Below are positions 6,354-40,231 of a stretch of 64,000 nucleotides of DNA, one piece after another (position 1 is the stretch's first letter; each line of letters opens with the position of its first letter). The stretch is taken from positions 62,001 through 126,000 of the forward strand of contig JAGWMJ010000011.1 of assembly GCA_028871815.1 (NCBI GenBank). Direction: 5' to 3'. Origin of the DNA: Armatimonadota bacterium (lineage in GTDB: Bacteria; Armatimonadota; Chthonomonadetes; Chthonomonadales; Chthonomonadaceae). The notes under the pieces are model-generated. The model was not told the DNA's origin. It ran no database searches and saw only the letters and a list, made by a program, of their open reading frames with translations. The translations under genes were made by a program, and so were the position numbers.

Positions 6354-9054
6354 CAGCAAACTCCAGTGATATCGTGTGGTGACCCGCGAGGTAGAGCGCC
6401 AGGCGATTGCCTTCGGCATCCACGCGTACGCGCGGGTCGTCCGCGCCCAGCAGCCGGCCATCCACATGAATCGTTGGCCGGACCCGAAAGCCGACCACGA
6501 GGAGCGCTGACGGCTTGTTCGGCCACAGGTCCACCTGGAACGTTATCGCGCTACCGCTGCTGCCGGGCTTCGTGATGGAACCTGCCGCGTGCACGATCAC
6601 GCCAAGATCGCGGAAGACGTGGTAACTGTAGATGGGCGTTTCGCGATACAGCCGGACGGCATCCATCTGGACGGTTGCAGGATTGATACCCGGGTTGTTC
6701 CGCGACTGGCTGATGAGGTTGTACGAGTCCGGCAGGAGGCCCGAACGTGTGGGATCGCTTCTGGCCGGCCACGTTTGCTGAATGCCGCTCGCGGTAATAC
6801 CATCGGCCAAAAGGCGCCAGAGCCAGGTTTCGGAGTACTGACTCAGCCCATACAGCGCATCGGCGTAGACCAGCCCGCACCACTGCACCGGCACACCAAG
6901 CCAGTAAGCCGCGTTCCAGTCACTGGCGCCGAACACAGGTATTGTAGCGAACATACCAACTGGCTTGTAGTCGCCATCCAGATAGATGAACGGGATGCCG
7001 GTCCATGCCCAGTATTCCGCGCGGGCAAGCAGCGTGGTGTCGCCGGTAAGCGCGTAGCCAAGCGTGAACGCTTTGACCAGCCATGCGGCCGCCAGAATGT
7101 CTGGCGTGTGCAGCGGTACCTCCCACGTTTGGGCTCCTCGTGGCGCCGTGCCATCGTACTTCTCCAGCGCGCGCAGAGCGGCGATCGCATCGTGGATTTC
7201 GTTCCAATCGCCGGCAAACGACGCATGCTGCAGCGCGGAGGCCACCACCGCAGCCGTCAGGCCATTTGCCTGATCGGACCCGTTCGTACGCGAAAGGTCG
7301 AGTCGCCCCGGCGCCGCGCTGTAATGAATGGTGAACGAAGGTCCCAGGCGCTGAAGCTCGTCGCGAGCCTGAACTTGCGCCTGCTTTGAGGCAGCCAGCG
7401 GGTCTCCAAACATCAGCGCCGGGGCAGGCGTGACGATGTGCCCGATATGAGCGTCGTTCCATCCGCCCTTCGGAATCGCTGCTACCGCCTGGCTCGCGGC
7501 ATCCGTCAGCTCGCTGCGCAGCGTTTTATCACGTGTGTGCTGTGCCAGCCATGTCATCATCATGCCCGCGTCGGCCGCAGGCTGCAGGCCGAACGATCCG
7601 GGAATCGCGTGATGAAAGAGCCCGCCGCTGCGAATGCCGCTGTGCAGCCAACCGTCATCGGCCATCCCCTCCCATACCGATTCGGCCGGCTTGACAATTG
7701 TGGGCTGTGGCATCAGGTCCACGTACTGCGAAACGGCGCCAATAGCACTGTCATCACGCCCGCCAAGGATGGTAGCCTGAAGCGTGATCGGTTGGTTGGC
7801 CTGCACCAGTTCAGGAGCGTATGGCAGCAGGCTTCCATCCGCGCGGCTGGCCGTATCCGCGCCGGGAAAGAGCACGCCCAGTACGTTGGCGCCGGAGTGA
7901 AACGTGCGATCCGGTGCGTCGAACAGTGCGCAATACTCGGAACTGCGCTGCCACGTGATGCCAACAAAACGACTATCCGCAGCCAGCGCCATCATGGGGA
8001 AGGTCACCTTCTCATTTGGCGGCACACGCCGGTCGGCTTGCGGACCAACGAGGTCCTTCGTCGAACTGCTGGGCTCATCGCCGTCCAGATACTCAAGACC
8101 AGGAAGTATCGCCTGAGTTTTGGATGCGCCGTATGCGCCGAGACCGGGGAATATCATCAGCATGGGCAGGTAGATCACCTGGCGATCCTGGTCCACAGTC
8201 ACCGTTGTTTGCACCTGCACGCCGTCGCGCGGAGAAGCAGGGTCGGTTGTTCGGCTGGTGAACGTCTGCACAAACGTCCATGCGGCGCCGCCGGCATCCC
8301 GCGCCGTCGCAGTAACAGTGACTGTCGCACCCTTTTGGGCCTGGACCGCGTCGCTGTGAGCCAGGTCAAGCCACTGTTCCTTGCCGTTTGCAAGTACGCC
8401 GATGAGCGGCCGGCTGCCGCCCATGGCCATCAGCTTGCCCGCCACAAGCACATCGAAACGCTGCCAGGTGTGGGGATCGATTCTTATTGACACGTCGCCG
8501 GAAGCAACCGACAAGGCATCGGCGCCAATGGGACCGACCGACGGCTTGAGCCACACCGGATCCTGCAGAATCACGCGACGTGACACACGTATCCCGGAAA
8601 CAACAACGCTGCCGTGTGCTCCGGGCGGGTCGAGGCGAAGGTGGTAACCAGGACCGAGCGGTGGGAGCGGAACCTGGCAGGTTTCCCACGCGCCGGCCCT
8701 CACGGGAAACTTGACCGAGTGCGGCTCGGAAGGGGCATTCCGGTAGTAGTAGATCTGCCCGGTGCCGCCCGCCTGGGAGTCGAGCCGTACGGTGCACCAC
8801 AGCGGCTGGCCAACTGGATAGTCACGCGGCGGTCCAAAGATATAGGGATCGCTGCCGGTGATCGAGATTTTGAGGCCGGCGGCGTCGCTGCTCAGCGGTC
8901 CCATATCGTGCGTGGGGCCCCATTCGCTCGCGGTTGTAGGCTGGGTGAAATCGAAAAGCGCGAGTGATTGTGCCGCAGCCGGCGGTGTGAGCCAGGGCGT
9001 CGCCGCCGAGCAGAGCGCGACTGCAAATGCAGCAAGATGCTTCTTGATACTCAT
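6343..9054 (-). CDS. Large secreted protein, glycosidase-like, family not recognised
   Basis: 903 residues with a clear signal peptide (MSIKKHLAAF... ending PPAAAQS, about 28 residues). The N-terminal 150 residues look like a beta-sandwich with Trp-rich strands, as in carbohydrate-binding modules. The central and C-terminal parts (about 450-800) contain repeated helical pairs such as ILAAAWLVKAFTLGYALTGD and many Trp, Tyr and Asp, which resembles an (alpha/alpha) toroid glycosidase or lyase. The last 100 residues look like a beta-domain. I cannot name catalytic residues or a GH/PL family. Secreted polysaccharide degradation is an inference. Its stop overlaps the phosphatase start. Confidence 0.8.
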   Translation of the reverse strand: MSIKKHLAAFAVALCSAATPWLTPPAAAQSLALFDFTQPTTASEWGPTHDMGPLSSDAAGLKISITGSDPYIFGPPRDYPVGQPLWCTVRLDSQAGGTGQIYYYRNAPSEPHSVKFPVRAGAWETCQVPLPPLGPGYHLRLDPPGAHGSVVVSGIRVSRRVILQDPVWLKPSVGPIGADALSVASGDVSIRIDPHTWQRFDVLVAGKLMAMGGSRPLIGVLANGKEQWLDLAHSDAVQAQKGATVTVTATARDAGGAAWTFVQTFTSRTTDPASPRDGVQVQTTVTVDQDRQVIYLPMLMIFPGLGAYGASKTQAILPGLEYLDGDEPSSSTKDLVGPQADRRVPPNEKVTFPMMALAADSRFVGITWQRSSEYCALFDAPDRTFHSGANVLGVLFPGADTASRADGSLLPYAPELVQANQPITLQATILGGRDDSAIGAVSQYVDLMPQPTIVKPAESVWEGMADDGWLHSGIRSGGLFHHAIPGSFGLQPAADAGMMMTWLAQHTRDKTLRSELTDAASQAVAAIPKGGWNDAHIGHIVTPAPALMFGDPLAASKQAQVQARDELQRLGPSFTIHYSAAPGRLDLSRTNGSDQANGLTAAVVASALQHASFAGDWNEIHDAIAALRALEKYDGTAPRGAQTWEVPLHTPDILAAAWLVKAFTLGYALTGDTTLLARAEYWAWTGIPFIYLDGDYKPVGMFATIPVFGASDWNAAYWLGVPVQWCGLVYADALYGLSQYSETWLWRLLADGITASGIQQTWPARSDPTRSGLLPDSYNLISQSRNNPGINPATVQMDAVRLYRETPIYSYHVFRDLGVIVHAAGSITKPGSSGSAITFQVDLWPNKPSALLVVGFRVRPTIHVDGRLLGADDPRVRVDAEGNRLALYLAGHHTISLEFAGDR

Positions 9055-23674: not shown

Positions 23675-24037
23675 ATGGCTGATCGTGCGCGTTTCGCCGT
23701 CATGTTCCGCGCATTGGGCGATCCTACGCGGCTGCGCATCTTCCAGATGCTCTGCAGCTGCCGCTGCCCGGTGAGCGTGGAGGCTGGCGGCGGTGTGCGT
23801 CCTGCTGCAGGCCCTTCGGCCGGCGAGGTCTGCTGCACAATCACCGGCTCAGAGCGGATCACATCCACCGTGAGCCACCATCTGAAGGAGCTGCGACTTG
23901 CCGGCTTGATCACGCTGGAAAAGTGCGGGCAGCGGCGCATCTGCGCCGTGAACACGGAGGCGCTGGATGCGCTCGGGAGTTGGGTGCAAGGCTTGACACA
24001 AACGGAGTACTGCGTTGCGGAGAGGCTGACACGATGA
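23675..24037 (+). CDS. arsR: ArsR/SmtB-family arsenic-responsive repressor
   Basis: 120 residues. Winged-helix core: FRALGDPTRLRIFQML, then ITSTVSHHLKELRLAGLI as the recognition helix and LEKCGQRRICAVN as the wing. Cysteines cluster in CSCRCP (27-32) and GEVCC (51-55), separated by a Gly/Pro/Ala-rich insert, and are likely As(III) ligands. Their position differs from the E. coli ELCVCDL helix site. Represses its own operon until arsenite binds. Start ATG 23675 has GGAGG 6 bases upstream. Its last bases overlap arsM (ATGA). Confidence 0.92.
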   Translation: MADRARFAVMFRALGDPTRLRIFQMLCSCRCPVSVEAGGGVRPAAGPSAGEVCCTITGSERITSTVSHHLKELRLAGLITLEKCGQRRICAVNTEALDALGSWVQGLTQTEYCVAERLTR

Positions 24038-24897
24038 ATGCAACAGACCTGACAGGCCGCGAGGATGTGTGGAAACTGGTCCGCGAGAAATATGGCGCCG
24101 CGGCCGTCACCGTGCTGAAGGGCGCCGGCGCCGCCTGCTGCGGAGGCAGCGCTGGAGGCGGGAGCGAAAGCTGCTGCGGAGGCGCTGCTATCACAGGCGG
24201 GCTGTACGATGAGACCGAAGCAGCCGAAATACCTGAGTCGGCGCTGCTGGCCTCGCTCGGCTGCGGAAACCCCACGGCTCTGGCCGAGCTGCGCCCGGGC
24301 GAGAAGGTGCTGGACCTGGGCAGCGGAGGCGGTATTGATGTGCTGCTCTCCGCACGACGCGTCGCGCCGGATGGGTTTGTCTGGGGACTGGACATGACCG
24401 ATGAGATGCTGGCCCTGGCGAACCGAAACCGCGCTGAGGCAGGCGCCGACAACGCGATGTTCCTTAAAGGGCACATCGAAGAGATTCCCTTGCCGGACAA
24501 CACCGTGGATGTGGTGATCTCGAACTGCGTGATCAACCTGGCGGCAGACAAGGACGCCGTGCTGCGAGAGACGTTCCGGGTGCTGCGCCCCGGTGGACGC
24601 CTGGCCGTTTCCGATGTGGTGGTGGATGGGCCGTTACCCGCGGTGATCCGCGCCGACATGGAGGCGTATGTGGGCTGCGTTGCCGGAGCTCTGGAGCGAG
24701 AAGATTACCTGGAGCGCCTGCATCGCGCCGGGTTCGGGCAGTGCTCCATCGAGCCCGTCAGACGGTACACGTTCGCCGATATGGAGGCCACTGCCTGCTG
24801 CTCGGCCGAGATCGCCGCACTGCCGGAGGATGAGCGTGCTGCGCTGGATGGCCGCGTTATGGGAGCCTTCATTCGCGCCGTCAAGCCTTGCCCGTGA
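24034..24897 (+). CDS. arsM: Arsenite S-adenosylmethionine methyltransferase
   Basis: 287 residues, starting at ATG 24034 inside the arsR stop. SAM-binding motif VLDLGSGGGID, then WGLDMTDEML. Cys sites of ArsM are present: AACCGG and SCCGG in the N-terminal part, ISNCVINL in the middle and YVGCVAG after it, plus CCSAE near the end. These match the Cys triad that binds As(III). It methylates arsenite to methylated, partly volatile species using SAM and thiols in the cytoplasm. A longer frame to 23923 only repeats arsR DNA in another frame. Confidence 0.94.
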   Translation: MNATDLTGREDVWKLVREKYGAAAVTVLKGAGAACCGGSAGGGSESCCGGAAITGGLYDETEAAEIPESALLASLGCGNPTALAELRPGEKVLDLGSGGGIDVLLSARRVAPDGFVWGLDMTDEMLALANRNRAEAGADNAMFLKGHIEEIPLPDNTVDVVISNCVINLAADKDAVLRETFRVLRPGGRLAVSDVVVDGPLPAVIRADMEAYVGCVAGALEREDYLERLHRAGFGQCSIEPVRRYTFADMEATACCSAEIAALPEDERAALDGRVMGAFIRAVKPCP

Positions 24898-25304
24898 AAA
24901 CCGTGTTGTTTGTCTGCGTTCACAACGCAGGGCGCTCACAGATGGCTGAAGCCTTCCTCAACCGGATGGCCCGTGAGGGCAGCTTGCCGGTACAGGCGGT
25001 TTCCGCCGGTGTGGAGGCCGGCGCCTCAATCAATCCTGTGGTGCGTGAGGTTATGGCGGAACTCGGCTATATGATGGAGGGCCAGGCGCCGAAAATGCTT
25101 ACACCCGAGATTGCGGCAGGCGCGTACCGAATCATCACAATGGGCTGTGGCGTGGATGCAAGCTCGTGCCCAGCGCGGATCCTGGTTTCCGAGGACTGGG
25201 GCCTCGCCGATCCGGCCGGGCAGCCGCTTGAGGCCGTCCGCCTGGTACGCGACGAAATCCTGCGCCGGGTCGGATGCCTGCTGGAGGATCTGGCGCGGCC
25301 ATGA
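24894..25304 (+). CDS. arsC: Thioredoxin-type arsenate reductase
   Basis: 136 residues, low-molecular-weight phosphatase fold. P-loop CVHNAGRSQMAEAF carries the nucleophilic Cys (CX5R). The redox pair lies in MGCGVDASSCPA, followed by EDWGLADP. This is the thioredoxin-coupled ArsC of the S. aureus pI258 type, reducing As(V) to As(III). GTG 24894 is the start, overlapping the arsM stop (GTGA). An upstream TTG at 24888 adds two residues and is less likely. Confidence 0.93.
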   Translation: MKTVLFVCVHNAGRSQMAEAFLNRMAREGSLPVQAVSAGVEAGASINPVVREVMAELGYMMEGQAPKMLTPEIAAGAYRIITMGCGVDASSCPARILVSEDWGLADPAGQPLEAVRLVRDEILRRVGCLLEDLARP

Positions 25305-26026
25305 CGGCGGCGATGGCCCGTCGATACGCGGCTGAGATGGCGGGCACCTTCGGCATCGTTTTTGCGCCGGCGTCGCTTGCCGGCAGCAGTCATCTCGCCG
25401 GCGGTGCACCCGGCTTGCTGGCCGCCGCATGCGCATCGGGCCTGGCGGTTAGCGCCATGATTTACGCGCTTGGCCACATCAGCGCCGCTCACTTCAACCC
25501 GGCTGTTACCCTGGGGTTTGCGGTGGCCGGGCGTTTCCCATGGCGGTACGTGCCCGGCTACTGGGCCGCACAGTTTGCCGGCGCGATCGCGGGCGGGGCT
25601 TTTGCCGTGTGGTTATTTGGAGCCGGAAGCGGCGTGCAGGTCCCCGCAGCCGGGCCGGTCCTGCGCAACGTGGCGCTAGAAGCGGCGATCACGTTTCAGC
25701 TTATGCTGGTGATAATCTCGGTAGCGACAGACCGTCGTGTGAACGGCGCCGTGCCGGGCCTGGCAATCGGCTTCGCGGTGATCGTGGGGGTTCTCATCGG
25801 CGGCCCCGTGACCGGAGGCTCAATGAACCCGGCTCGATCACTTGGGCCGGCGCTGTTTGCCGGCGGCGCTGCAATCGCACATCTGTGGATCTATTTCGCC
25901 GGTCCAGCGGCGGGGGCAGTTCTGGCTGCGCGCACCTATGAACTGCTGCGGGGCGGAGAGCACCACGCACAGGGTGCGCCAAATGACCTGTTTGTGGCGC
26001 TGCAAAGCATTCGGAGCGAAGCTTAG
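25301..26026 (+). CDS. MIP-family channel (AqpS-like aquaglyceroporin)
   Basis: 241 residues with six hydrophobic helices and both NPA boxes, HFNPAVTLGF and SMNPARSLGPAL. It starts at ATG 25301 inside the arsC stop and is the last gene of the ars operon. No Acr3 or ArsB pump is in the operon. In Sinorhizobium an aquaglyceroporin (AqpS) replaces the pump by letting arsenite made by ArsC flow out down its gradient. The same role is inferred here. General glycerol or water transport cannot be excluded, but the tight coupling argues for arsenic. Confidence 0.9.
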   Translation: MTAAMARRYAAEMAGTFGIVFAPASLAGSSHLAGGAPGLLAAACASGLAVSAMIYALGHISAAHFNPAVTLGFAVAGRFPWRYVPGYWAAQFAGAIAGGAFAVWLFGAGSGVQVPAAGPVLRNVALEAAITFQLMLVIISVATDRRVNGAVPGLAIGFAVIVGVLIGGPVTGGSMNPARSLGPALFAGGAAIAHLWIYFAGPAAGAVLAARTYELLRGGEHHAQGAPNDLFVALQSIRSEA

Positions 26027-30167: not shown

Positions 30168-30205
30168 GAGTGCCCGGGCCAACGACATCGCTGGCCCGGG
30201 CACTC
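30168..30205 (-). terminator. Long perfect hairpin after cytochrome-porin gene
   Basis: Inverted repeat GAGTGCCCGGGCCA / TGGCCCGGGCACTC, 14 perfect pairs with a 10-base loop, 33 bases beyond the stop of the minus-strand cytochrome-porin gene. The minus-strand continuation has only a short T tract (CGTTTCAGG). Confidence 0.75.
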
Positions 30206-30237: not shown

Positions 30238-31428
30238 CTAGAAGGTGAACATCAACGTGCCAATCAGGGACTCGTCACCGGGGCCGTGTTGGCGACGGTA
30301 CTCCGCTCCCAGCTGGAGCGTCTGATTGAAGCGATGCTGCACTCCAAACGTGAGGGCTTCGGTGACCGGGGTACCGGCCACGTCGGCGGATTTCACCGAG
30401 TCGTAGCGCGCAACCAGAGCGGTTGCATTGTGGAAGTAGACGTCACCTTCCAGAAGGCCGCCGTAACTGTTTACGTTGGTACCGGCGGCATCCACGGTAT
30501 CCTGGCCCCACAGCAGGCCGCCGTTTAGTTCAACATGCAGCGCCGGGATGCCAAATCGCCCCGGCTTCGTCATTCTGCTGTATGTTCCAAACAGCCCCGC
30601 CCGGCCGAAGTGGTTTGTAAAGCCGACCGACGGCAGGGGGCGCGAACCGTGGTAGTAGAACGCCCCGATGGCGCTGCCCTGGTTGCCGATGAGGTAGTCG
30701 GATTGCAACGCGAAGTCGTTGTAGCCGCCATGCTCTATCCCCGTAGCGCCATCGCCCGACTCGTCCACGCCTTGAAGCCACGAGATGCGCGCATCAAACG
30801 GCGCGCTGGTGTAGCCGACCTCCACGCCACGCTCCAGCCCGGCGATGCCGAAGTTGCCCACGGTGTTCGCCGTGAGCGGGCCACTGGCTCCGAACAGGCT
30901 GGCGTCGGTGGTCGTCACTCCGCGATCGCCAAGCAGTTGGTAGCCGTCCAGAACCGGCATCTGCCCGACGCGTACGGACCAGAAGCTGCCACGCGCAGCC
31001 GTGTTGTACTGAACCCAGGTCTCATCGAATCCTGACGAACTCGCCGTGGATGTGCCGAAGATGTAGTGAACATGCACGGTGACGTGATTGCCCAGCGGCG
31101 CGAACATCGCCGAATCGATCTGCGGGATCGAGATGTCGCTGCTTCCACTGCCCTTGACGTGCTGGGCAGTGAGCGTGGAGACGAAGCTGACGTAGTTGGC
31201 CGTGTTGGTGGGTTTGGGTATTGGCTGCGGCAGTCGGAACCCAGCTCGAAAGAACGCATAGCCAAACGGTGTCAGCCTTGGCGCCATATCGTGACATCTG
31301 GCGCACGGCAAGTGGTAGGTGCGCGCGAACATGGGGTATGCCGCGGCGGAGCCTCCACCGACTGCAGAGAGAATCAGGGCCGTGGCGAAAGCGACAACCC
31401 CGGGGGCGCGATTGCGATTTGCAGACAT
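30238..31428 (-). CDS. Outer-membrane porin-like protein with N-terminal c-type heme motif
   Basis: 396 residues. Signal peptide to about 30 (ATALILSAVGGGSAAA), then TYHLPCARCHDMAPRLTPFG, a single CXXCH heme site, followed by about 330 residues of alternating beta-strands with aromatic girdles, ending TLMFTF, the terminal-Phe signature of outer-membrane barrels. The best reading is a cytochrome-barrel fusion able to hold a heme at the mouth of a barrel. It may pass electrons or act as a porin; neither is proven. Downstream of an exported Cys-rich protein on the same strand. Confidence 0.8.
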   Translation of the reverse strand: MSANRNRAPGVVAFATALILSAVGGGSAAAYPMFARTYHLPCARCHDMAPRLTPFGYAFFRAGFRLPQPIPKPTNTANYVSFVSTLTAQHVKGSGSSDISIPQIDSAMFAPLGNHVTVHVHYIFGTSTASSSGFDETWVQYNTAARGSFWSVRVGQMPVLDGYQLLGDRGVTTTDASLFGASGPLTANTVGNFGIAGLERGVEVGYTSAPFDARISWLQGVDESGDGATGIEHGGYNDFALQSDYLIGNQGSAIGAFYYHGSRPLPSVGFTNHFGRAGLFGTYSRMTKPGRFGIPALHVELNGGLLWGQDTVDAAGTNVNSYGGLLEGDVYFHNATALVARYDSVKSADVAGTPVTEALTFGVQHRFNQTLQLGAEYRRQHGPGDESLIGTLMFTF

Positions 31429-31469
31429 GCCAGTGACTCCTTACTAAGCGATCGTTAGATAGCCGGCGC

Positions 31470-32186
31470 CTATTTCGTTGGGTTAGCGGCTGGCGCAGCC
31501 GTGGTCGCTCCCGTGGCAACTGCCGTGATCGGCAATGACGTCAGAGACCCGCCAAGTGCGGCAATGGCCTTGGCAACGGCCTTTTCCGGACCGACATCCC
31601 AGTGCTTCTTGGTGTGCAGCAACAGCTGCGTGTTCCCTGCCACGAGCTCCGCGGATGTGATGCCGATGGACTTCATGGCCGCCAGCAGGTCAGCCGGAGA
31701 CTTACCGGAAAGGCCGGATACAGGCAGCAGCGCTACAGACCGGTCAATAATCAGCTTTTGAGCGACGCCCGGCGACGCGGTGGGATCCGCTGCTGTGAGC
31801 CGTAAGACCGTGCCAAACGGAAGCGACTGCAGTGCGTCAAGGAACGTGTTGTGCTTGATGCTGCCCCACGCTACACACACGGCATTTGGCTGGCCACAGC
31901 CGCACATTTTGCAGGTGCTGCCCGACTGACCGGGTTTGAACAGCTGCAACCCCAGACAGTCCTGGCAGATGCCCCCGACTGTGCTGGAATCGGCAACGCT
32001 GACCGTGACGGGCGCCGTTTTGCCCATCGGCAACAGCGAGATGGAGCCAAGGCTGGTCGGCTGCGCCGCCAGAGTTGTGACCGTACCGGGAATCGGCGTG
32101 TCTTGTGCCCCGGCAACCGGGCCGGCGACTGCGAGCACCGCAGCCGTCGCGAGGATGATCAATTGCCGTCTTGACGTGGTTCTCAT
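31470..32186 (-). CDS. Exported Cys-rich protein of unknown function
   Basis: 238 residues. Signal peptide MRTTSRRQLIILATAAVLAVAGPVAG. The mature N-terminal half has a cysteine cluster, GICQDCLG then STCKMCGCGQPNAVC, which could bind a metal or heme-free iron-sulfur centre. The C-terminal half has AAMKSIGITSAELV and WDVGPEKAVAKAIAALGG, a helical pattern without known match. Lies 41 bases before the cytochrome-porin gene on the same strand, so they probably form one transcript. I do not recognise the family. Confidence 0.75.
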   Translation of the reverse strand: MRTTSRRQLIILATAAVLAVAGPVAGAQDTPIPGTVTTLAAQPTSLGSISLLPMGKTAPVTVSVADSSTVGGICQDCLGLQLFKPGQSGSTCKMCGCGQPNAVCVAWGSIKHNTFLDALQSLPFGTVLRLTAADPTASPGVAQKLIIDRSVALLPVSGLSGKSPADLLAAMKSIGITSAELVAGNTQLLLHTKKHWDVGPEKAVAKAIAALGGSLTSLPITAVATGATTAAPAANPTK

Positions 32187-32494
32187 TTTCGTTTCCTTTA
32201 CTATCCCGCTTACCGACTGGGTCCTTTGCAGACCGCCTTCGGACCTGTCGTTCGCGTTCGTTCCAACAGGATAACCGGATATTGTTATCTATTTCTCAAT
32301 CTATTACATTATACAGTCTATTTTATGCGGTCGTTCCCTTGTTTCCTCGTGCATCACGCCCGAAAACCGCCAGGAAACAGGCTTCACGAGGAGCTGTTTA
32401 CCCGGATTGTGCTTTAATTCACAGAATCGCGGCACAGTATTTATCCTCACTACCCGTTCGGAGAATCGAACTCAGGTTCGAGCGGCAAATCGCA
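32187..32494. other. AT-rich upstream region
   Basis: Gene-free region between the Cys-rich protein and the scdA terminator. The part at 32260-32345 is strikingly AT-rich (TATTTCTCAATCTATTACAT, ATACAGTCTATTTTAT) compared with the GC-rich surroundings and probably holds the minus-strand promoter of the 32186-30238 pair. No gene is seen. Confidence 0.5.
32270..32289. promoter_or_regulatory. Palindrome GATAAC-N8-GTTATC, possible operator
   Basis: Perfect 6-base arms, 84 bases before the start of the exported Cys-rich gene. A related pattern, GATAA-N10-TTATC, sits before scdA at 33351-33370, so the two transcripts may share a regulator. The regulator is unknown. Confidence 0.45.
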
Positions 32495-32528
32495 CAAAAA
32501 TGCCCGGCGCCGGGAAGTGGCGCCGGGC
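32495..32528 (-). terminator. Intrinsic terminator of scdA
   Basis: GCCCGGCGCC / GGCGCCGGGC, 10 perfect pairs with a 7-base loop. On the minus strand it is followed by ATTTTTGTG, a proper T-run. It lies 24 bases after the stop of the iron-sulfur repair gene. Confidence 0.8.
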
Positions 32529-32551
32529 GTTTCGCTTAGAACCGCGGTGCG

Positions 32552-33295
32552 TTATGACCGAAAAGCGGCTCCAACCGGTTCAGCCAGCTTCGATTCGAGC
32601 TCCAAGGCTCGCGGAAACAGCAGGTTGTTCTCTTCGCTGATGTGCAGATGCAGATCTACTTCCAGCGCCAGCAGCAGCATAAGCATGTGATCCCAAACAG
32701 CGCTGGAGGTGTGTGGCGACGCGAACCCATCCGTCAGCTCGCTCAGCCGGTCCAGAGCGATGTTGACGCGGAGGTGGTCGTCCTCCATGATCCGGACCGG
32801 CTGTGCGATGGATCGGCCGTGCAGCCGAGGCGTACCGAACTCCGACTCCAGTCGGCGGCAATACGGAAACAGTACATGCTCCTCCTTCGCCATGTGCGTT
32901 TCCAGCTCGACATGCAAGTCGGAAAAAACCTTCCGGATTTCGGCAAGTTCGGGGCGCTGGCGGCCGTGCTCCTGATCCACTTTGTCGATTACCGCTGCGA
33001 GGTCCGGGAGCGCGTGAACCAGGTAGGCGTGATGAACGCTTACGATGTGGTCGACCAGCTCGTTGATACTGGCCCTGTTCCAATCGGTGTCGTCCGGCGC
33101 CGGCGTTCGCGCATCGCTTGCCGCAAGCTCGCCGATCATCTCGAACAGGTCGATGCCTGCGCGATGGCACGCTTCGTCCAGGGGAAGCCCTCCCTGGCAG
33201 CAGTAGTCCAGGCCAAATCGCTCGAACACCATGGCTCGGCTTTGCCGTTCCGCGACCAGTTTGGCCACAGAGATAGTTGGTTCGATGACGCTCAT
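32552..33295 (-). CDS. scdA: Iron-sulfur cluster repair di-iron protein ScdA/YtfE
   Basis: 247 residues. N-terminal DUF542 (about 5-60) with the paired Cys DYCCQGG, then a hemerythrin-like four-helix domain. Di-iron ligands are in HIVSVHHAYL, ELETHMAKEEHVLFP, EDDHLRVNI and HLHISEENNLLFP. It repairs Fe-S clusters damaged by nitric oxide or oxidants in the cytoplasm. Ribosome site GAGGTGAGC precedes ATG 33295. Its place beside a heme-porin protein suggests a response to nitrosative or redox stress. Confidence 0.94.
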   Translation of the reverse strand: MSVIEPTISVAKLVAERQSRAMVFERFGLDYCCQGGLPLDEACHRAGIDLFEMIGELAASDARTPAPDDTDWNRASINELVDHIVSVHHAYLVHALPDLAAVIDKVDQEHGRQRPELAEIRKVFSDLHVELETHMAKEEHVLFPYCRRLESEFGTPRLHGRSIAQPVRIMEDDHLRVNIALDRLSELTDGFASPHTSSAVWDHMLMLLLALEVDLHLHISEENNLLFPRALELESKLAEPVGAAFRS

Positions 33296-33340
33296 GGGAT
33301 GCTCACCTCGCAGAGTGCGCGGCTGCGCGCGCTCGCCGCC

Positions 33341-33371
33341 GGATAATACCGATAACTGGATCGTCTTATCC
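33341..33371. promoter_or_regulatory. Inverted GGATAA/TTATCC and GATAA/TTATC upstream of scdA
   Basis: GGATAA at 33341-33346 faces TTATCC at 33366-33371, and inside it GATAA 33351-33355 faces TTATC 33366-33370 with a 10-base spacer. It lies about 50-75 bases before the scdA start, where an operator would be expected. Similar to the palindrome at 32270-32289. Confidence 0.4.
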
Positions 33372-33512: not shown

Positions 33513-35123
33513 ATGAAAAGCTGGCTCGTACCGGGAATCGCTTTTGTTTGCCTGGCCGCCCTGATCGCCTGGCGGCTGCACTTCAATGCCGTTCAGGGCG
33601 CAATTGCCGACAAGCAGCGCGTCGCGCAGATGCATGCGCCGGTTGTGGTGGGCGTGGCGGATGCCGTCATCGGCAACATCGCGCACCAGTACGAGGGTAT
33701 CGGCTCGGTGGAGTCGCCATTTGATATCAAAATCTCTGCGCGAGTTACGGCCCGGATCCTGTACCTGCAGGTTCGGCAGGGTGACCGCGTAAAGGCCGGG
33801 CAGGTGCTTGTGCGGCTCGATCCCGGCGACTTGACGGCGGCAGTAACCCAGCAGCAGGCAGCTCTTGCCGAGGCCCGCTATCGTTTGGCGCAGGCAGCGC
33901 TGACCCAGAACTCAACCAACGTCGGCGTATCCACTCAGATCAGTCAGGGCGCAGCCGGGCTGGCAAGCGCGCAAGCCAATCAGATGGATGCCGAGCGCAC
34001 GTTGGATGCGCAGCGCGCTTCCGCCGAAGCGGCAGTTACCGACGCGAAGGCAAAACTGGATGCGGCCACCGCGCAGATTGGTACTGCGCAGGCTGCGGTA
34101 GCCGCAGCGAAAGCGAACATGAGTGACGCCCGCGCCAAGCTGGACCGCACCACGGAGTTGTACAGGCAGTCCTTTGTGGCAGCCCAGGATGTGGACGATG
34201 CGCGCGCTGCCTTTTCGGTAACCCAGAGTGCGGTAAATAGCGCCATAGCCCAGGTGAACGCGGCGAAATCGGCACAAGGCTCGATGGCTGCTGAGCTGAA
34301 CGCTGCCAGGCAGAACCAGACCGTAACGGTAAGCAAGGCAGTTGCCGACCTGGCGGTTGCCCGCGCGGCCACCCAGCAAGCCGCGGCTACGCTGAAGCTG
34401 GACCGCGCGAACCGCTCGCAAGCGCCGGCGTACGAAGCCAACATTGCCGCACTTAGAGCGGCTGTTACCGCCAGCGAAGCACAGCTGAGCAGTGCGGAAG
34501 CAAACCTGAGCGACGTGGTTATCCGCGCGCCGCTGGATGGCACGATTACCGAGCGCGATATGGACCCAGGGGCAATGGCCACGCCCGGCGCTCCGATCGT
34601 TGCGCTCCAGACAATTCACCAGGTGTGGGTAAGTGTGGCGACCCCCGAAGAGGTTACGCAGCACATGCACATCGGGATGCCGGCCACGGCAGACTTTGAC
34701 GCCCTGCCCGGCCGCACTTACCATGGCGCGATCGTGCAGATGAACCCGGCAGGCGACGTGCTCAGCCGCCAGTTCACGGTGAAGGTGGCAATTAACAACA
34801 CGGACGACAGGCTCAAACCCGGTATGTTTGGCCGGGTCACGTTTGCGGTTGGCGGCGAACGCGGGGTGCTGCTTGCGCCGCATGAAGCCATTCAGGTGGT
34901 TCCCGGCGGCGGCAGCAGTGTGACCGTGGTCGGAGCCGATGGCATCGCACACAAGGTATCCGTAACCACCGGAGACAGCGATTCCTCAAACGTGGAGGTG
35001 ACCTCCGGGCTCGCCCCAGGGGACCGGGTAGTGGTCATGAGCGCCGCGCCCGTCAAGGACGGCAGCGCGGTAAAGATTTCCGGCGGCTCGCCGGGCGGCT
35101 CACGGAAGCAGGCGGCGCCATGA
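33513..35123 (+). CDS. RND efflux periplasmic adaptor subunit (HlyD/AcrA family)
   Basis: 536 residues, long for the family because of an expanded alpha-hairpin. N-terminal signal anchor WLVPGIAFVCLAALIAW. The lipoyl half-motifs are ITARILYLQVRQGDRVKAGQ and VIRAPLDGTITERDMDPGA. Between them (about 110-340) is a very Ala-rich coiled coil (QAALAEARYRLAQAAL and similar). Beta-barrel and membrane-proximal domains follow. Joins the inner-membrane pump to TolC in the periplasm. The stop overlaps the pump start (ATGA). Confidence 0.93.
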   Translation: MKSWLVPGIAFVCLAALIAWRLHFNAVQGAIADKQRVAQMHAPVVVGVADAVIGNIAHQYEGIGSVESPFDIKISARVTARILYLQVRQGDRVKAGQVLVRLDPGDLTAAVTQQQAALAEARYRLAQAALTQNSTNVGVSTQISQGAAGLASAQANQMDAERTLDAQRASAEAAVTDAKAKLDAATAQIGTAQAAVAAAKANMSDARAKLDRTTELYRQSFVAAQDVDDARAAFSVTQSAVNSAIAQVNAAKSAQGSMAAELNAARQNQTVTVSKAVADLAVARAATQQAAATLKLDRANRSQAPAYEANIAALRAAVTASEAQLSSAEANLSDVVIRAPLDGTITERDMDPGAMATPGAPIVALQTIHQVWVSVATPEEVTQHMHIGMPATADFDALPGRTYHGAIVQMNPAGDVLSRQFTVKVAINNTDDRLKPGMFGRVTFAVGGERGVLLAPHEAIQVVPGGGSSVTVVGADGIAHKVSVTTGDSDSSNVEVTSGLAPGDRVVVMSAAPVKDGSAVKISGGSPGGSRKQAAP

Positions 35124-38100
35124 ACTTTGCGCGATTCTCCGTAACGAGGCCGGTAGCCGTCACCATGCGCATCGCCGCGCTGGTGCTTCTTGGCGCCATC
35201 TGCTTCACGAAACTGCCGGTGGACCTTCTACCGAACGTCTCTATTCCCACGGTCGCGGTCATCACCGACTGGCCGAATGTGTCGCCGGAAGAGATCGAAA
35301 CACAGGTTACGAGGCCGATTGAGCAGGCTGTGAGCTCCGTCGCCAACATGTACGAGGTCAGCTCCCAAACCACCGAAGGCAGCTCCACCGTTCGCGTCCA
35401 GTTCACCTGGGGATCCGACATCGGTCAGGGCGCCGTTGACGTGCTCCAACTGGTGGAGCGTGCGCGAAGGAACTTCCCTCCGGACCCAACGCTCGAGACG
35501 CCAATCGTCTTCAAGTACGACCCATCGCAGCTTCCGATCCTCATCTACGCGGTCTCGGGTGGTGGCGACCCCGTCAAGCTGCGCACTCTGCTGGACAACG
35601 AGATCACGCCGATCCTCGAATCGGCCGATGGTGTGGCGGCAGCCACGGTCTCGGGCGGCGAGGACCGCGCGATCCTCATCGATGTGGATCCGGCCAAGTT
35701 GCGCGCATTCAATCTGGGCCTCAGTCAGATCTCCACCCGTATCGCGCAGGAGAACATCAACCTGCCTGCGGGCATCGCCAAGATGGGAAACACGGAGTAT
35801 ACGATACGGAGTCTCGGCTGGTTCACCTCACCCCAACAGATCGCAAAAATCCCGATAGGCAGCTACAACGGCAACGAGGTTCTGCTCGGCGATGTGGCGC
35901 AGGTGAAGGACTCGCACGCGGAAACGCGCCTCTATACGCGCCTGAACGGTGTTCCTGCCTGCGGCGTGATCGTCACCAAGCAGAGCGCGGCCAATACCGT
36001 CTCAACGGCAGCCGGTGTCATGCAGAAGGTCGCCGAGATCCAGAAGCTCTATCCGGACCTTACCTGGCGCATCGCGTACAACCAGGCTCAGTTCATCTCG
36101 GCCTCCGTCGCCGACGTTGAAACCAGCGCCATCATCGGCGGCATCCTGGCGCTGCTCATCCTGCTGCTCTTCCTGAGGAACGTCCGCAGCACGCTCGTGG
36201 TGGGACTCTCCATTCCAATCTCGATCATCAGTACGTTTGCGCTGCTCTACCTTGGCGGCTTTACGCTGAACACCATGAGTCTGGGTGGCCTTGCACTGGC
36301 TACAGGTCTTATTGTAGATGACGCTATTGTAGTTTTAGAGAATATTTTCCGGCATATTGAACGCGACAAGCTGCGGCCGGCGGAGGCGGCCGTGTCGGGT
36401 ACGGGAGAAATAGCATCCGCCGTTATAGCATCAACGCTGACCATCGTCGTCGTCTTCCTGCCACTGTTCTTCATCAAGGGCCAGGCGGGCCAGATGTTTA
36501 CGCAATTCGCGCTGGTTGTCATATTCTCACTGGCGGTTTCACTCCTCGACGCCACCACCGTGGTGCCCATGCTGGCCTCGCGCCTGATCAGCAGCCAGGA
36601 TGTGGAGGAGAGCGAGTCGCTGGATGAGCGGCCCGGATTGCTGCACAAACTCTTCACCATCAGCGGCCGAGCCATGCATCAACTGGACGTCCGGTACCGG
36701 CGAATGCTCGCGTGGGCGGTCCATCACCGCATCTGGGTACTTACCGGCGTGGCAGCGGTTACCCTGTTGAGCTTTCTGCTGCTTGGCCAGATCGGCACCG
36801 AACTGATGCCGGCAACCGACAGCGGCGACTTCAACATCGTGGTAAAGCTGCCGATCGGCACGGCGCTAGCAAAGACCAATGCGGTGATGAAGCAGGTTGA
36901 AGCTATCGTCATCAAGAATCCGAACGTCCAAACGGCTTTCTCGGCTGCGGGAACCACGCTGAGCCAGTTCAACGGCAGCACCACCGAGCTAATTCCATAC
37001 GAAGGCTCGGTTACCGTAAAGCTCAAGGATAACCGGAAGGCGAGCACACTCCAGGTTATGGGGCAGCTGCGGTCACAAATCGCACGCCTTGCCGGGGTAA
37101 GGCCGCTAGTAAGCCAGTTCGACATCGTTTCAATGATTTTGAGCGGTGGACCGAGTAACGTGGAGGTCGACGTCTTTGGCTCCGACCTCACGAAGCTGAG
37201 CGCAATGGGAGCCAAGGTCATGGCCAAAATGCGCACTATTCCCGGACTGGCCAATGTAGATGTGAACTGGCAGGAGGCGACACCGGAGATCCAGTGGCAT
37301 GTCAATCGGCAGAAGGCGGCGGAACTTGGCCTCAACTTTTCGGATGTGGCGAATACGGTCAATACGGCCACGAACGGCAATATCGCCAGCTATTATGAAG
37401 AGAACGGTTACCAGTATCCGATAATCGTTCAGTTTCCGCAGGCCGATCGCAAAACGATCAGCCAGTTGAATACGATGCCGCTGTATGTGGCGCCTGTAGG
37501 TGGCGGCACGCCCACCGAGATAGAACTACAGCAGGTTGCTCATCCAGATCTCTCTACCGGGCCCAGCGAGATAACCCGCCTCAACCGGCAGCGCTATATC
37601 GCCATTAGCGGGCAGCCGCAGGGCCGCTCCTCGGGAGCTATACAGGCCGATATCGCCGCGGCGATGAAGGGCATTTCGATGCCGAACGGCATGTACTGGT
37701 CGTGGGGCGACTTTCAGAAACGCCAGGCTCAGGAGTTTGGAGGAATGGGCCTGGCGGTATTCATGGCGATTGCGCTGGTGTACATGCTGCTTGCCTCACA
37801 GTTTGAGTCGTTTGTACATCCACTCACCGTGTTATGCTCCATTCCTCTATCGGCTGTCGGCGTGATTCTGGCGCTGTTCCTTACTGGTCGATCCTTTGGC
37901 CTGACGGCCTTCATAGGCCTGTTGATGCTGGTAGGCATTGTGGTTAAAAACGGTATTCTGCTGGTGGACTATACCAACGTGCTGCGACGGCGCGGGGTTC
38001 CACGCGATGAGGCCGTACTCACGGCCGGCGCCACCCGGATGCGGCCTATTATGATGACGGCCTGCACGGCAGTGCTTGGCATGCTTCCGTTGGCCATCGG

Positions 38101-38347
38101 CATCGGCAAGGGCAGCGAAACTCAGGCTCCTATGGCAACCGCCGTTATCGGCGGATTGATCACTTCCACCATCCTGACCCTGTTTGTTGCCCCAACGGTT
38201 TACACGATGTTCGACGATCTGGGCCGTATTATGCGGCGCGACCGCAGAGACCTGGCCGGGCCGCCGATGGTAGAGCCGAGTGTGGAGGCTGTTGAACGCG
38301 AGCAGCGGCCTGAAGGATCTGAGCCGATTACCGAGGCTGCCGATTGA
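35120..38347 (+). CDS. RND multidrug efflux permease (AcrB/MexB-like, HAE1)
   Basis: 1075 residues, normal length, twelve TM helices and two large periplasmic loops. It starts RFSVTRPVAVTMRIAALVLL. TM4 has GLIVDDAIVVLENIFRHIE with the two Asp of the proton relay, TM10 region has LVGIVVKNGILLVDY. Uses the proton gradient to drive substrates out through the adaptor and TolC. The long, partly hydrophobic substrate-pocket sequence does not reveal specificity. Codon use shifts toward TTA/ATA around 36300-36350 but the frame is intact. Confidence 0.95.
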   Translation: MNFARFSVTRPVAVTMRIAALVLLGAICFTKLPVDLLPNVSIPTVAVITDWPNVSPEEIETQVTRPIEQAVSSVANMYEVSSQTTEGSSTVRVQFTWGSDIGQGAVDVLQLVERARRNFPPDPTLETPIVFKYDPSQLPILIYAVSGGGDPVKLRTLLDNEITPILESADGVAAATVSGGEDRAILIDVDPAKLRAFNLGLSQISTRIAQENINLPAGIAKMGNTEYTIRSLGWFTSPQQIAKIPIGSYNGNEVLLGDVAQVKDSHAETRLYTRLNGVPACGVIVTKQSAANTVSTAAGVMQKVAEIQKLYPDLTWRIAYNQAQFISASVADVETSAIIGGILALLILLLFLRNVRSTLVVGLSIPISIISTFALLYLGGFTLNTMSLGGLALATGLIVDDAIVVLENIFRHIERDKLRPAEAAVSGTGEIASAVIASTLTIVVVFLPLFFIKGQAGQMFTQFALVVIFSLAVSLLDATTVVPMLASRLISSQDVEESESLDERPGLLHKLFTISGRAMHQLDVRYRRMLAWAVHHRIWVLTGVAAVTLLSFLLLGQIGTELMPATDSGDFNIVVKLPIGTALAKTNAVMKQVEAIVIKNPNVQTAFSAAGTTLSQFNGSTTELIPYEGSVTVKLKDNRKASTLQVMGQLRSQIARLAGVRPLVSQFDIVSMILSGGPSNVEVDVFGSDLTKLSAMGAKVMAKMRTIPGLANVDVNWQEATPEIQWHVNRQKAAELGLNFSDVANTVNTATNGNIASYYEENGYQYPIIVQFPQADRKTISQLNTMPLYVAPVGGGTPTEIELQQVAHPDLSTGPSEITRLNRQRYIAISGQPQGRSSGAIQADIAAAMKGISMPNGMYWSWGDFQKRQAQEFGGMGLAVFMAIALVYMLLASQFESFVHPLTVLCSIPLSAVGVILALFLTGRSFGLTAFIGLLMLVGIVVKNGILLVDYTNVLRRRGVPRDEAVLTAGATRMRPIMMTACTAVLGMLPLAIGIGKGSETQAPMATAVIGGLITSTILTLFVAPTVYTMFDDLGRIMRRDRRDLAGPPMVEPSVEAVEREQRPEGSEPITEAAD

Positions 38348-38808
38348 AGCCTGACGCATCGCCCGCACCGCGCACACTGGCTGAAGACGCCGCGGAGATC
38401 GAGGCAATACTGCCGAGAATCGCGCGCAGGCTGTTTCAGTTGGACCACGCCCACCCTGCCAGCAACCTCCCGGTCGCTCAACTCAAGGTCTGCTCGATTC
38501 TGCTGCACGGTCCGCGTCCTATGAACTGCATCAGCGCAGAGTTGGGCATATCACTGAGCGCTACCACGCAGATCGCCGATCGCCTGGAGCGCGCCGGGCT
38601 TGTAATGCGCGAGTCGGAGCCGGATGACCGGCGCGTCCGGCTGTTGGCTCTCACGGAGGTGGGAAAGGAGATCATGGAGACGCGTCGTGCGTTCCGCCTG
38701 AATGGCGCCATGCAGGTGCTTGGTAGAATGACGCCGGAAGTGAGGCGAAGCGTTCTGGAGGCCATGGAAAGGCTGATGGCGGCATGTAGGGAGACCGGCG
38801 ATGCGTAG
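38344..38808 (+). CDS. MarR-family transcriptional regulator
   Basis: 154 residues, TTG start overlapping the pump stop (TTGA). Winged helix: LGISLSATTQIADRLERAGL as recognition helix and ESEPDDRRVRLLALTEVG as the wing with the family's D-x-R signature. MarR dimers release DNA on binding phenolic or drug ligands. Encoded inside the pump operon, so it probably represses its own transcript, perhaps at the palindromes at 33467-33497. It overlaps the TolC gene by 8 bases. Confidence 0.92.
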   Translation: MKPDASPAPRTLAEDAAEIEAILPRIARRLFQLDHAHPASNLPVAQLKVCSILLHGPRPMNCISAELGISLSATTQIADRLERAGLVMRESEPDDRRVRLLALTEVGKEIMETRRAFRLNGAMQVLGRMTPEVRRSVLEAMERLMAACRETGDA

Positions 38809-40231
38809 AGGCGCCACACTTCTTGCCAGCATCGCACTTTCGTTCGTCACGGTCCTTTCGTGGGCCCAGTCCGGTGGCAAAACGCCGCGTACACCGCCCA
38901 TCGAGCCACCAATGCGCCAGACACCGCTACCCACGCCCCTCACGATAGAGAGCAGCGTTCCGGTACCGGCCGATGTGCCTAACCGACCGCTTACAGCTGC
39001 GGAGGCTGTGCAGATCGCGCTCCACAACCAGCCGAGCCTTGCGATTGCGCGTGCAGCCGTGGCAGCGGCTCATGGCGCTGTTTTGCAGGCTCGCAGCGGG
39101 CTGTTGCCGTCGCTTGCGCTCTCGGCCAGCTACACGAACACACAGACGATCGCACACCCCGCGGCGCAGTCGACGGGCGGCACATCGAGCGGAAGCGGAT
39201 CGTCCGGTGCGGCAAACGCGCTTCTCAGCTTCTCCGGCTTTAATACCGGCGCTTCCGTGAAGCAGCTGCTGTTCGATTTCAACCACACGCGTGACACCGT
39301 CCGCCAGGAAGAGGCGCTCGAGCGTTCCGCCAACGCGGCGTACAGCACGGCCGATGCGGACCTGGCGCTGCAGGTCAAGCAGCTGTTTTACGCCTATGAT
39401 GAGGCTAAGCACCTCGTGACGCTGAACGAGACAAACGTGTCCGACCAGCAGTCCCATCTGGACCTGGCCCAGGCTCGACTACGCTCCGGCCTTGGCGAAC
39501 CCTCCGACGTGCTGCTTGCTCGCACGGCGCTGGATGCCGCGATCCAGGCGCTGACAACGGCCCGGAACGCAAACCTGATTGCACGGCTGACGCTGGCCGC
39601 GGCAATGGGTGTGGATCCACGACTGCCACTGGTACCGGCCGATGCGCACGAGTCGGCGCCTGTTTCCGTGAACATTGACCAATCGGTTGCGGAAGCGCTT
39701 ACTCACCGCCCTGAGATGGCTCAGTTCACTGCCGACGTTCAGGCAGCCGCAGCCGGCCTGGATTCCGCGCGCACGAGCGCTGCGCCGAGCCTGTCGGCCA
39801 GCCTGGGGCTTAGCGGGCGTGGTTCGGCATTCACGCCACAGGATCAGTTCTTCAGCGCCGGCTTAAGCCTTCAGTGGACTCCTTTCGACTCGGGCTTGAC
39901 GACCGGGCGCATCAAATCTGCCCAGGCGGGCGTGCAGAGCAGCCAGGCTGCGCTGATTGGAGAGCGCCAGCAGATTGTGTCCGACGTGGCCTCAGCGGCC
40001 GTAAACCTGCAGGCTGCGATGCAGCACGCGCAAACGGCCGCGTCCGAGGTGGCGAATGCACAGGAGAGCGTGAGAATTGCTGAGGGCCGGTATCGCTCGG
40101 GCGTCGGTATTTTCCTCGACCTGCTGGATGCCCAGTCGGCCTACGTGACGGCCCAAACGGACCAGATTAATGCCGACGCTGCGGTTGACGAGGCGCGGGC
40201 AGCATTGGCGCACGCAGTTGGAGCGCCGTAG
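38801..40231 (+). CDS. TolC-family outer-membrane efflux channel
   Basis: 476 residues. Signal peptide MRRGATLLASIALSFVTVLSWA. Two OEP repeats (about 65-260 and 290-470) with long helices; LTAAEAVQIALHNQPSLAIA opens the first and VAEALTHRPEMAQFTADV the second. The family ending GRYRSGVGIFLDLLDAQSAY is present. Forms the trimeric outer-membrane duct of this pump. A Ser/Gly-rich loop at about 125-140 is an insertion. With it the operon is a full tripartite system. Confidence 0.94.
   Translation: MRRGATLLASIALSFVTVLSWAQSGGKTPRTPPIEPPMRQTPLPTPLTIESSVPVPADVPNRPLTAAEAVQIALHNQPSLAIARAAVAAAHGAVLQARSGLLPSLALSASYTNTQTIAHPAAQSTGGTSSGSGSSGAANALLSFSGFNTGASVKQLLFDFNHTRDTVRQEEALERSANAAYSTADADLALQVKQLFYAYDEAKHLVTLNETNVSDQQSHLDLAQARLRSGLGEPSDVLLARTALDAAIQALTTARNANLIARLTLAAAMGVDPRLPLVPADAHESAPVSVNIDQSVAEALTHRPEMAQFTADVQAAAAGLDSARTSAAPSLSASLGLSGRGSAFTPQDQFFSAGLSLQWTPFDSGLTTGRIKSAQAGVQSSQAALIGERQQIVSDVASAAVNLQAAMQHAQTAASEVANAQESVRIAEGRYRSGVGIFLDLLDAQSAYVTAQTDQINADAAVDEARAALAHAVGAP

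Follow-up and report, generated by a model that had tools for sequence, protein, structure and literature searches.

The window is a 64-kb stretch of DNA (G000:C11:62001-126000) from a genome of 3.68 Mb (G000, here called the own genome). The subject of this report is a row of three genes on its minus strand, coding for a Cyc2-like cytochrome-porin (P1), an apparently exported protein with six Cys residues (P2) and the ScdA protein, together with a palindrome found in two promoter regions. The list of open reading frames (ORFs) of the window agrees with a preliminary description of this DNA, in which the three genes were said to lie in a row. The features of the locus are as follows.

30238-31428, minus strand: P1, predicted Cyc2-like monohaem cytochrome-porin of 396 residues, second gene of the P2-P1 unit (ORF)
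31470-32186, minus strand: P2, predicted exported protein of 238 residues with six Cys, first gene of the P2-P1 unit (ORF)
32552-33295, minus strand: ScdA/RIC (YtfE-like) di-iron protein of 247 residues (ORF and Pfam domains)
32270-32289, no strand: putative operator of P2-P1, GATAAC-N8-GTTATC (GATAACCGGATATTGTTATC), 103 bp upstream of the P2 start
33351-33370, no strand: putative operator of ScdA, GATAA-N10-TTATC (GATAACTGGATCGTCTTATC), 75 bp upstream of the ScdA start
32502-32528, minus strand: terminator-like hairpin 3' of ScdA, between ScdA and P2-P1 (10 GC pairs and a T run)
30168-30205, no strand: hairpin with 18-nt arms 3' of P1, between P1 and an acetate-CoA ligase gene
33409-33381, minus strand: promoter-like TTGACA-N17-CATACT just upstream of the ScdA operator (pattern match)

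The palindrome and its putative regulator

P2 and P1 are separated by 41 bp. Since hairpins follow both ScdA and P1, the three genes are probably transcribed as two units, and a single palindrome lies in the promoter region of each. The region holds two terminator-like sites (mean of shuffled sequences 3.2), so that a hairpin alone is not significant. The inverted repeats that had been described in both promoter regions are present at 32270-32289 and 33351-33370. When the whole own genome was searched for the palindrome, exact matches to GATAAC-N9-TTATC were found at two places, the P2 and ScdA promoters. If up to one mismatch is allowed, the form GATAA-N10-TTATC is found at 20 places (two exact). 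The reversed-pattern control gives 12, and thus the one-mismatch places are mostly chance matches; the two exact sites are not. The shorter form GGATA-N4-TATCC was dropped as a genome signature. It is not specific, because it has 89 places at one mismatch or less (reversed control, 15) and its three exact places all lie within open frames.

Related genomes provide independent tests of the putative operator. Upstream regions (350 bp) of ScdA genes were inspected in 30 fetched loci of 34 places listed, the window among them. With one mismatch or none, GATAA-N10-TTATC is present in 14 of these 30 (13 of 29 without the window; three exact; shuffle mean 0.42) and the shared core GGAT-N6-ATCC is found exactly in eight (shuffle mean 0.24). 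A weight matrix was derived from the ScdA promoter sites of 13 relatives, with the window left out, and scores of at least 16 were counted. Seven of 12 promoters of quinol nitric oxide (NO) reductase (qNOR) genes, which are outside the training set, reach this score (12 fetched loci of 20 places listed). All seven come from the nine loci whose protein is most similar to the query; the three below 43% identity have no such site. Within the window the matrix ranks the P2 site first (29.7) and the ScdA site second (25.8), the next, unrelated site scoring 9.6 and the maximum over 60 shuffled windows being 15.2; this ranking is partly circular, because the training sites were picked using the window palindrome.

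In a scan of 518 promoters from 39 loci, sites with such a score precede ScdA (6/11), Rrf2 (2/4), qNOR (1/2) and YwiC-like genes (1/5), and none of three cupin genes. P2 or P1 promoters score in 5 of 32 cases versus 2 of 461 for other genes, and in both of these cases the intergenic region is also that of ScdA or P1. The P2 promoters of the genomes G014 and G011 carry sites (one of the two tandem P2 genes of G014, which runs into a contig end, was left out). From these comparisons the palindrome is predicted to be a conserved operator of ScdA and qNOR genes in related genomes. Shared control of P2-P1 and ScdA appears well supported, and NO is the likely signal. The supposed link to nitrosative stress is borne out to the extent that the same putative operator stands before ScdA and qNOR genes of relatives. 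Searches limited to the open part of PubMed Central listed no paper that joins Cyc2 with NsrR or describes this operator.

The own genome has a second ScdA gene (L107, G000:C8, 6938-7663, plus strand); 98 bp before it lies an operator-like site that is weaker (score 16.3). The ScdA operator of the window also lies within the divergent promoter of a resistance-nodulation-division (RND) efflux operon (33513-40231: adaptor, pump, MarR-like regulator, TolC-like protein), and therefore the pump might share this control.

A single regulator for both promoters, as proposed in the preliminary description, is suggested by the conserved operator and by the 8 of 30 loci in which an Rrf2 gene lies no more than 1.5 kb from ScdA. 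Rrf2 and qNOR-cupin-ScdA are divergent in G020, as are Rrf2 and ScdA in G002. Rrf2, qNOR, cupin, ScdA and YwiC-like genes are consecutive in G020 (L108, G020:C5, 3935-8817); cupin and YwiC-like genes recur beside ScdA in other genomes. The own genome encodes three Rrf2 proteins above the Pfam cut-off. The likely orthologue (G000:C7:190404-190787; hereafter C7 Rrf2) has 47-56% identity to five others and matches Pfam Rrf2 with 96 bits (cut-off 30). A weaker site (11.3) lies in the promoter of this gene itself; none of 500 shuffles reached that score. The other two Rrf2 genes adjoin SUF and cysteine-synthase-like genes (named by eye).

Glu7, Cys90, His97, Cys102 and His105 are invariant in the six Rrf2 orthologues. 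In NsrR three Cys residues are the cluster ligands (PMC5748679); this pattern was not found in the six orthologues. C7 Rrf2 scores on the models of NsrR, IscR, RirA and SUF regulators, none of them above cut-off (52.8 bits on the NsrR equivalog model NF008240, cut-off 182). It is on account of its gene set that C7 Rrf2 is presumed to sense NO. The arrangement resembles the NsrR regulon, which according to PMC1274295 likewise combines an Rrf2-family regulator, ScdA/YtfE-type and NO-detoxifying genes and one palindrome. However, the operator given there is gATGyAT-N5-ATrCATc, whereas here it is GGATAW-N8-WTATCC. Furthermore, the putative regulon described here has a cytochrome-porin and P2-family genes among its members, and the conserved Cys pattern of the regulator is not the same.

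P1, P2 and ScdA proteins

P1 contains, as had been described, one CXXCH at its N-terminus (CARCH, residues 42-46), and its C-terminal residue is Phe. PMC8406198 defines Cyc2 by the signature AXPXFAR[Q/K][T/Y] followed by CXXCH and PXL, a length of at least 365 residues and a 16-strand barrel. The signature region of P1, AYPMFARTYHLPCARCHDMAPRL, is one residue off, with T for Q/K; P1 is for this reason called Cyc2-like and not a proven Cyc2. In the alignment of ten P1-family members the CXXCH is invariant, PRL or PGL follows four residues later in all ten, and the strict signature is present in three and a relaxed form in all. P1 (396 residues; family 390-413) exceeds the minimum length. Its beta periodicity is weak (reached by 3 of 1,000 shuffles), and it may form an outer-membrane barrel. 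P1 had been listed as having no named function, which no longer holds entirely, as most of the published Cyc2 features are present. Oxidation of Fe(II) by P1 would be by analogy with Cyc2; P1 also departs from Cyc2 in having P2 as a partner gene and an operator of the ScdA type. The Cyc2 genes so far reported from Armatimonadota belong to cluster 3 (PMC9671151), and divergent cluster 3 is the Cyc2-like group that PMC8406198 states to have the most uncertain function.

Searches of Pfam, NCBIfam and PDB sequences found no relative of P1, and weak library matches for P1 and P2 (Trehalose_recp, dystrobrevin, C1_1) were judged to be chance. P1 or its N-terminal part is present in 14 of 61 related genomes, nine of which have a strong relative (E < 1e-70). 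Among plasmids P1 had one weak match, in Methylocystis sp. MJC1, which covered 14% of the query and lay beside three c-type cytochrome genes. The own genome codes for a second cytochrome-porin-like protein (AIPAFARKYHTTCARCH; L106, G000:C6:166000-182000, 6576-8156, minus strand). Its neighbours are two genes that look cupredoxin-like by eye and one for a NapH-like ferredoxin protein.

The N-terminus of P2 looks by eye like a signal peptide, and the protein has six Cys residues (C74, C77, C92, C95, C97 and C104), which form CQDC, CKMCGC and one more. This agrees with the exported protein with two Cys clusters that had been described, and P2 indeed has no named family: no Pfam or NCBIfam family and no PDB sequence relative was found. 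Members are present in 11 of the 61 relatives (alignment of 15 members). A profile search of 291 genomes of the phylum matched 13; the 11 convincing ones all belong to two sister families, and the two weak matches (G094 and G128; ~50 residues, internal stop) were excluded. Close named relatives found by the P2 search include metagenome-assembled genomes of Chthonomonadaceae (Armatimonadota), to which the own genome is close. As judged from sequence, P2 represents a new family, found only in its own and one sister taxonomic family.

The AF2 model of P2 is of fair quality (pLDDT, predicted local distance difference test, 74.7). It aligns best with CusF (Z 4.8, 2.4 Å, 74 residues) and its C-terminal part with the HMA-like CopZ (Z 4.3, 2.4 Å, 64 residues). 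There was no VIA-align match at Z of at least 5 and no Foldseek match below E 0.001. The two modelled domains may thus weakly resemble CusF/HMA metallochaperones in fold, from which P2 differs in having no sequence match, a Cys insert and an HMA-like part without CXXC. In G017 and G019 a P2 domain is fused to cytochrome c and the Cys set is reduced to three of six. The G017 fusion lies two genes from qNOR, and its upstream site scores 17.5 (0.4% of shuffles).

The identification of ScdA is confirmed by the Pfam domains ScdA_N (55.9 bits) and Hemerythrin (66.1 bits), both above cut-off. This combination is that of the RIC family (ScdA, YtfE and DnrN, as described in PMC9052748), although the protein scores slightly below the cut-off of the equivalog TIGR03652 (192.5 bits, cut-off 204.7).

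P2 lies directly upstream of P1 in six of the nine genomes with a strong P1 relative, one of these being a fragment at a contig edge. ScdA adjoins neither gene in the other five of these six genomes. The conserved unit, on this comparison of gene order, appears to be P2-P1 and not P2-P1-ScdA. The module of three genes proposed in the preliminary description thus stands in its shared putative operator and its link to NO; the genes are not a conserved cluster, and a terminator-like hairpin lies between ScdA and P2. In three genomes P2 is found beside a DmsE/MtrA-like decahaem cytochrome (TIGR03508, 180 bits, cut-off 192) and a large unassigned protein that may be its barrel; one of these P2 genes is cut by a contig edge. 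A one-CXXCH protein lies between in two of the three clusters and an eight-haem protein follows in two. The cluster of G006 (L087, G006:C144, 7446-16728) consists of P2, the one-CXXCH protein, the decahaem MtrA-like cytochrome, the large protein and the eight-haem protein, and two genes further on is an ScdA gene with an exact operator. These three related genomes recall the MtrAB/PioAB/MtoAB conduits. The window differs in that P1 is a single-haem fused protein and no decahaem cytochrome is present at the locus. Further P2 copies are located by ABC-transporter genes; of three such copies, two carry a site (scores 21.4 and 16.4).

Proposed mechanism and alternative explanations

The gene pairing, the shared operator, the operator family and the Cyc2 signature are supported by computed comparison. 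In the proposed mechanism, C7 Rrf2 would be an Fe-S regulator that binds GGATAW-N8-WTATCC and represses the two adjacent units P2-P1 and ScdA; its identity, the repression and the NO signal are what we infer from the comparisons above. NO, or nitrite giving NO, would damage the cluster of the regulator and switch both units on. ScdA would act in the cytoplasm on di-iron/NO chemistry. P1 would be a Cyc2-like porin with one haem, located in the outer membrane. P2 would be exported to the periplasm as its partner and would pass electrons via a metal-thiolate centre, or load or protect one. The haem and barrel of P1, the part of P2 as an electron or metal carrier and the direction of electron flow are presumed in this scheme. 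An electron path of P2-P1 across the outer membrane is plausible. It might be useful when NO blocks the haem-copper oxidase, and also when Fe(II) and nitrite meet.

On balance we lean towards this explanation by a single Rrf2 as a whole. A broader proposal has slightly less than an even chance: a new Rrf2-type NO regulon (GGATAW-N8-WTATCC) in the order of Chthonomonadaceae that includes outer-membrane electron conduits, with the Cyc2-like porin and with P2 serving Cyc2-like and MtrA-like conduits. If true, NO stress and extracellular electron transfer would be parts of one physiological response. For a phylum in which genetics is little developed, the operator and the partner family suggest that nitrosative stress may be tied to electron transfer at the outer membrane. 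They also give a handle on when Cyc2-like proteins are used, and the operator could serve as a signature of NO-response genes in Armatimonadota.

Several observations, in addition to the partial circularity of the matrix ranking, weigh against NO-dependent control of an electron conduit. Searches for qNOR and for COX1-type NO reductases found no NO reductase in the own genome, which has one COX1 only, and NirK searches gave nothing above cut-off there; an intracellular source of NO is therefore not evident. The operator site is absent before P2-P1 in four other intact pairs (G001, G004, G008 and G017), so that the link of P2-P1 to NO would be lineage-specific. The surroundings of several P2 copies, ABC-transporter genes among others, do not particularly fit a role in electron transfer. 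P1 reads AYPMFARTY and does not match the strict AXPXFAR[Q/K][T/Y]. Moreover, an AF2 model of P1 from four sequences (pLDDT 32) did not yield a fold.

P2 could instead be a periplasmic Cu or Zn chaperone, a CusF-like barrel with a Cys insert and an HMA-like domain, which matures or protects outer-membrane cytochromes and carries no electrons. The best alignments of its model, with CusF and CopZ, point this way. Z values below 5 may, however, reflect common small beta-barrel and ferredoxin-like arrangements, Foldseek gave no match at its threshold, and all six Cys residues precede the HMA-like part; we regard a chaperone as rather unlikely. Alternatively, P2-P1 is a Cyc2-type module for Fe(II) oxidation, Rrf2 control reflects iron or Fe-S status and not NO, and ScdA and qNOR are co-regulated via their iron centres. 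Rrf2 proteins include iron and Fe-S sensors, C7 Rrf2 scores on the regulator models named above with none above cut-off, its invariant residues are not a three-Cys pattern, and Cyc2 family proteins oxidise Fe(II) (PMC8406198). Against this, the genes with strong operators in relatives are mostly ScdA, qNOR and Rrf2, a nitrosative-stress set, and the SUF genes of the own genome adjoin a different Rrf2. Control by iron is accordingly judged unlikely.

The missing NO reductase could also mean that its place is taken by P1, which would act directly on NO or nitrite at the cell surface and receive electrons from P2; this would account for an ScdA operator controlling P2-P1. We know of no Cyc2 protein with activity on NO or nitrite, and the other P2-P1 pairs have no operator; this role is very unlikely. 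Finally, the shared palindrome might be due to chance, or serve only ScdA and the divergent RND pump, leaving P2-P1 unrelated. The 18 other one-mismatch places in the own genome, with 12 in the reversed control, agree with a chance occurrence. Yet the P2 promoter site is exact and ranked first in the window, and the P2 promoters of G014 and G011 also have sites. A coincidence is hardly credible, and control of P2-P1 together with ScdA is preferred.

Elsewhere in the window, an arsenite methyltransferase-like gene (23923-24897) is followed by an aquaporin-like gene (25274-26026; both named by eye), perhaps a pair for arsenic detoxification.

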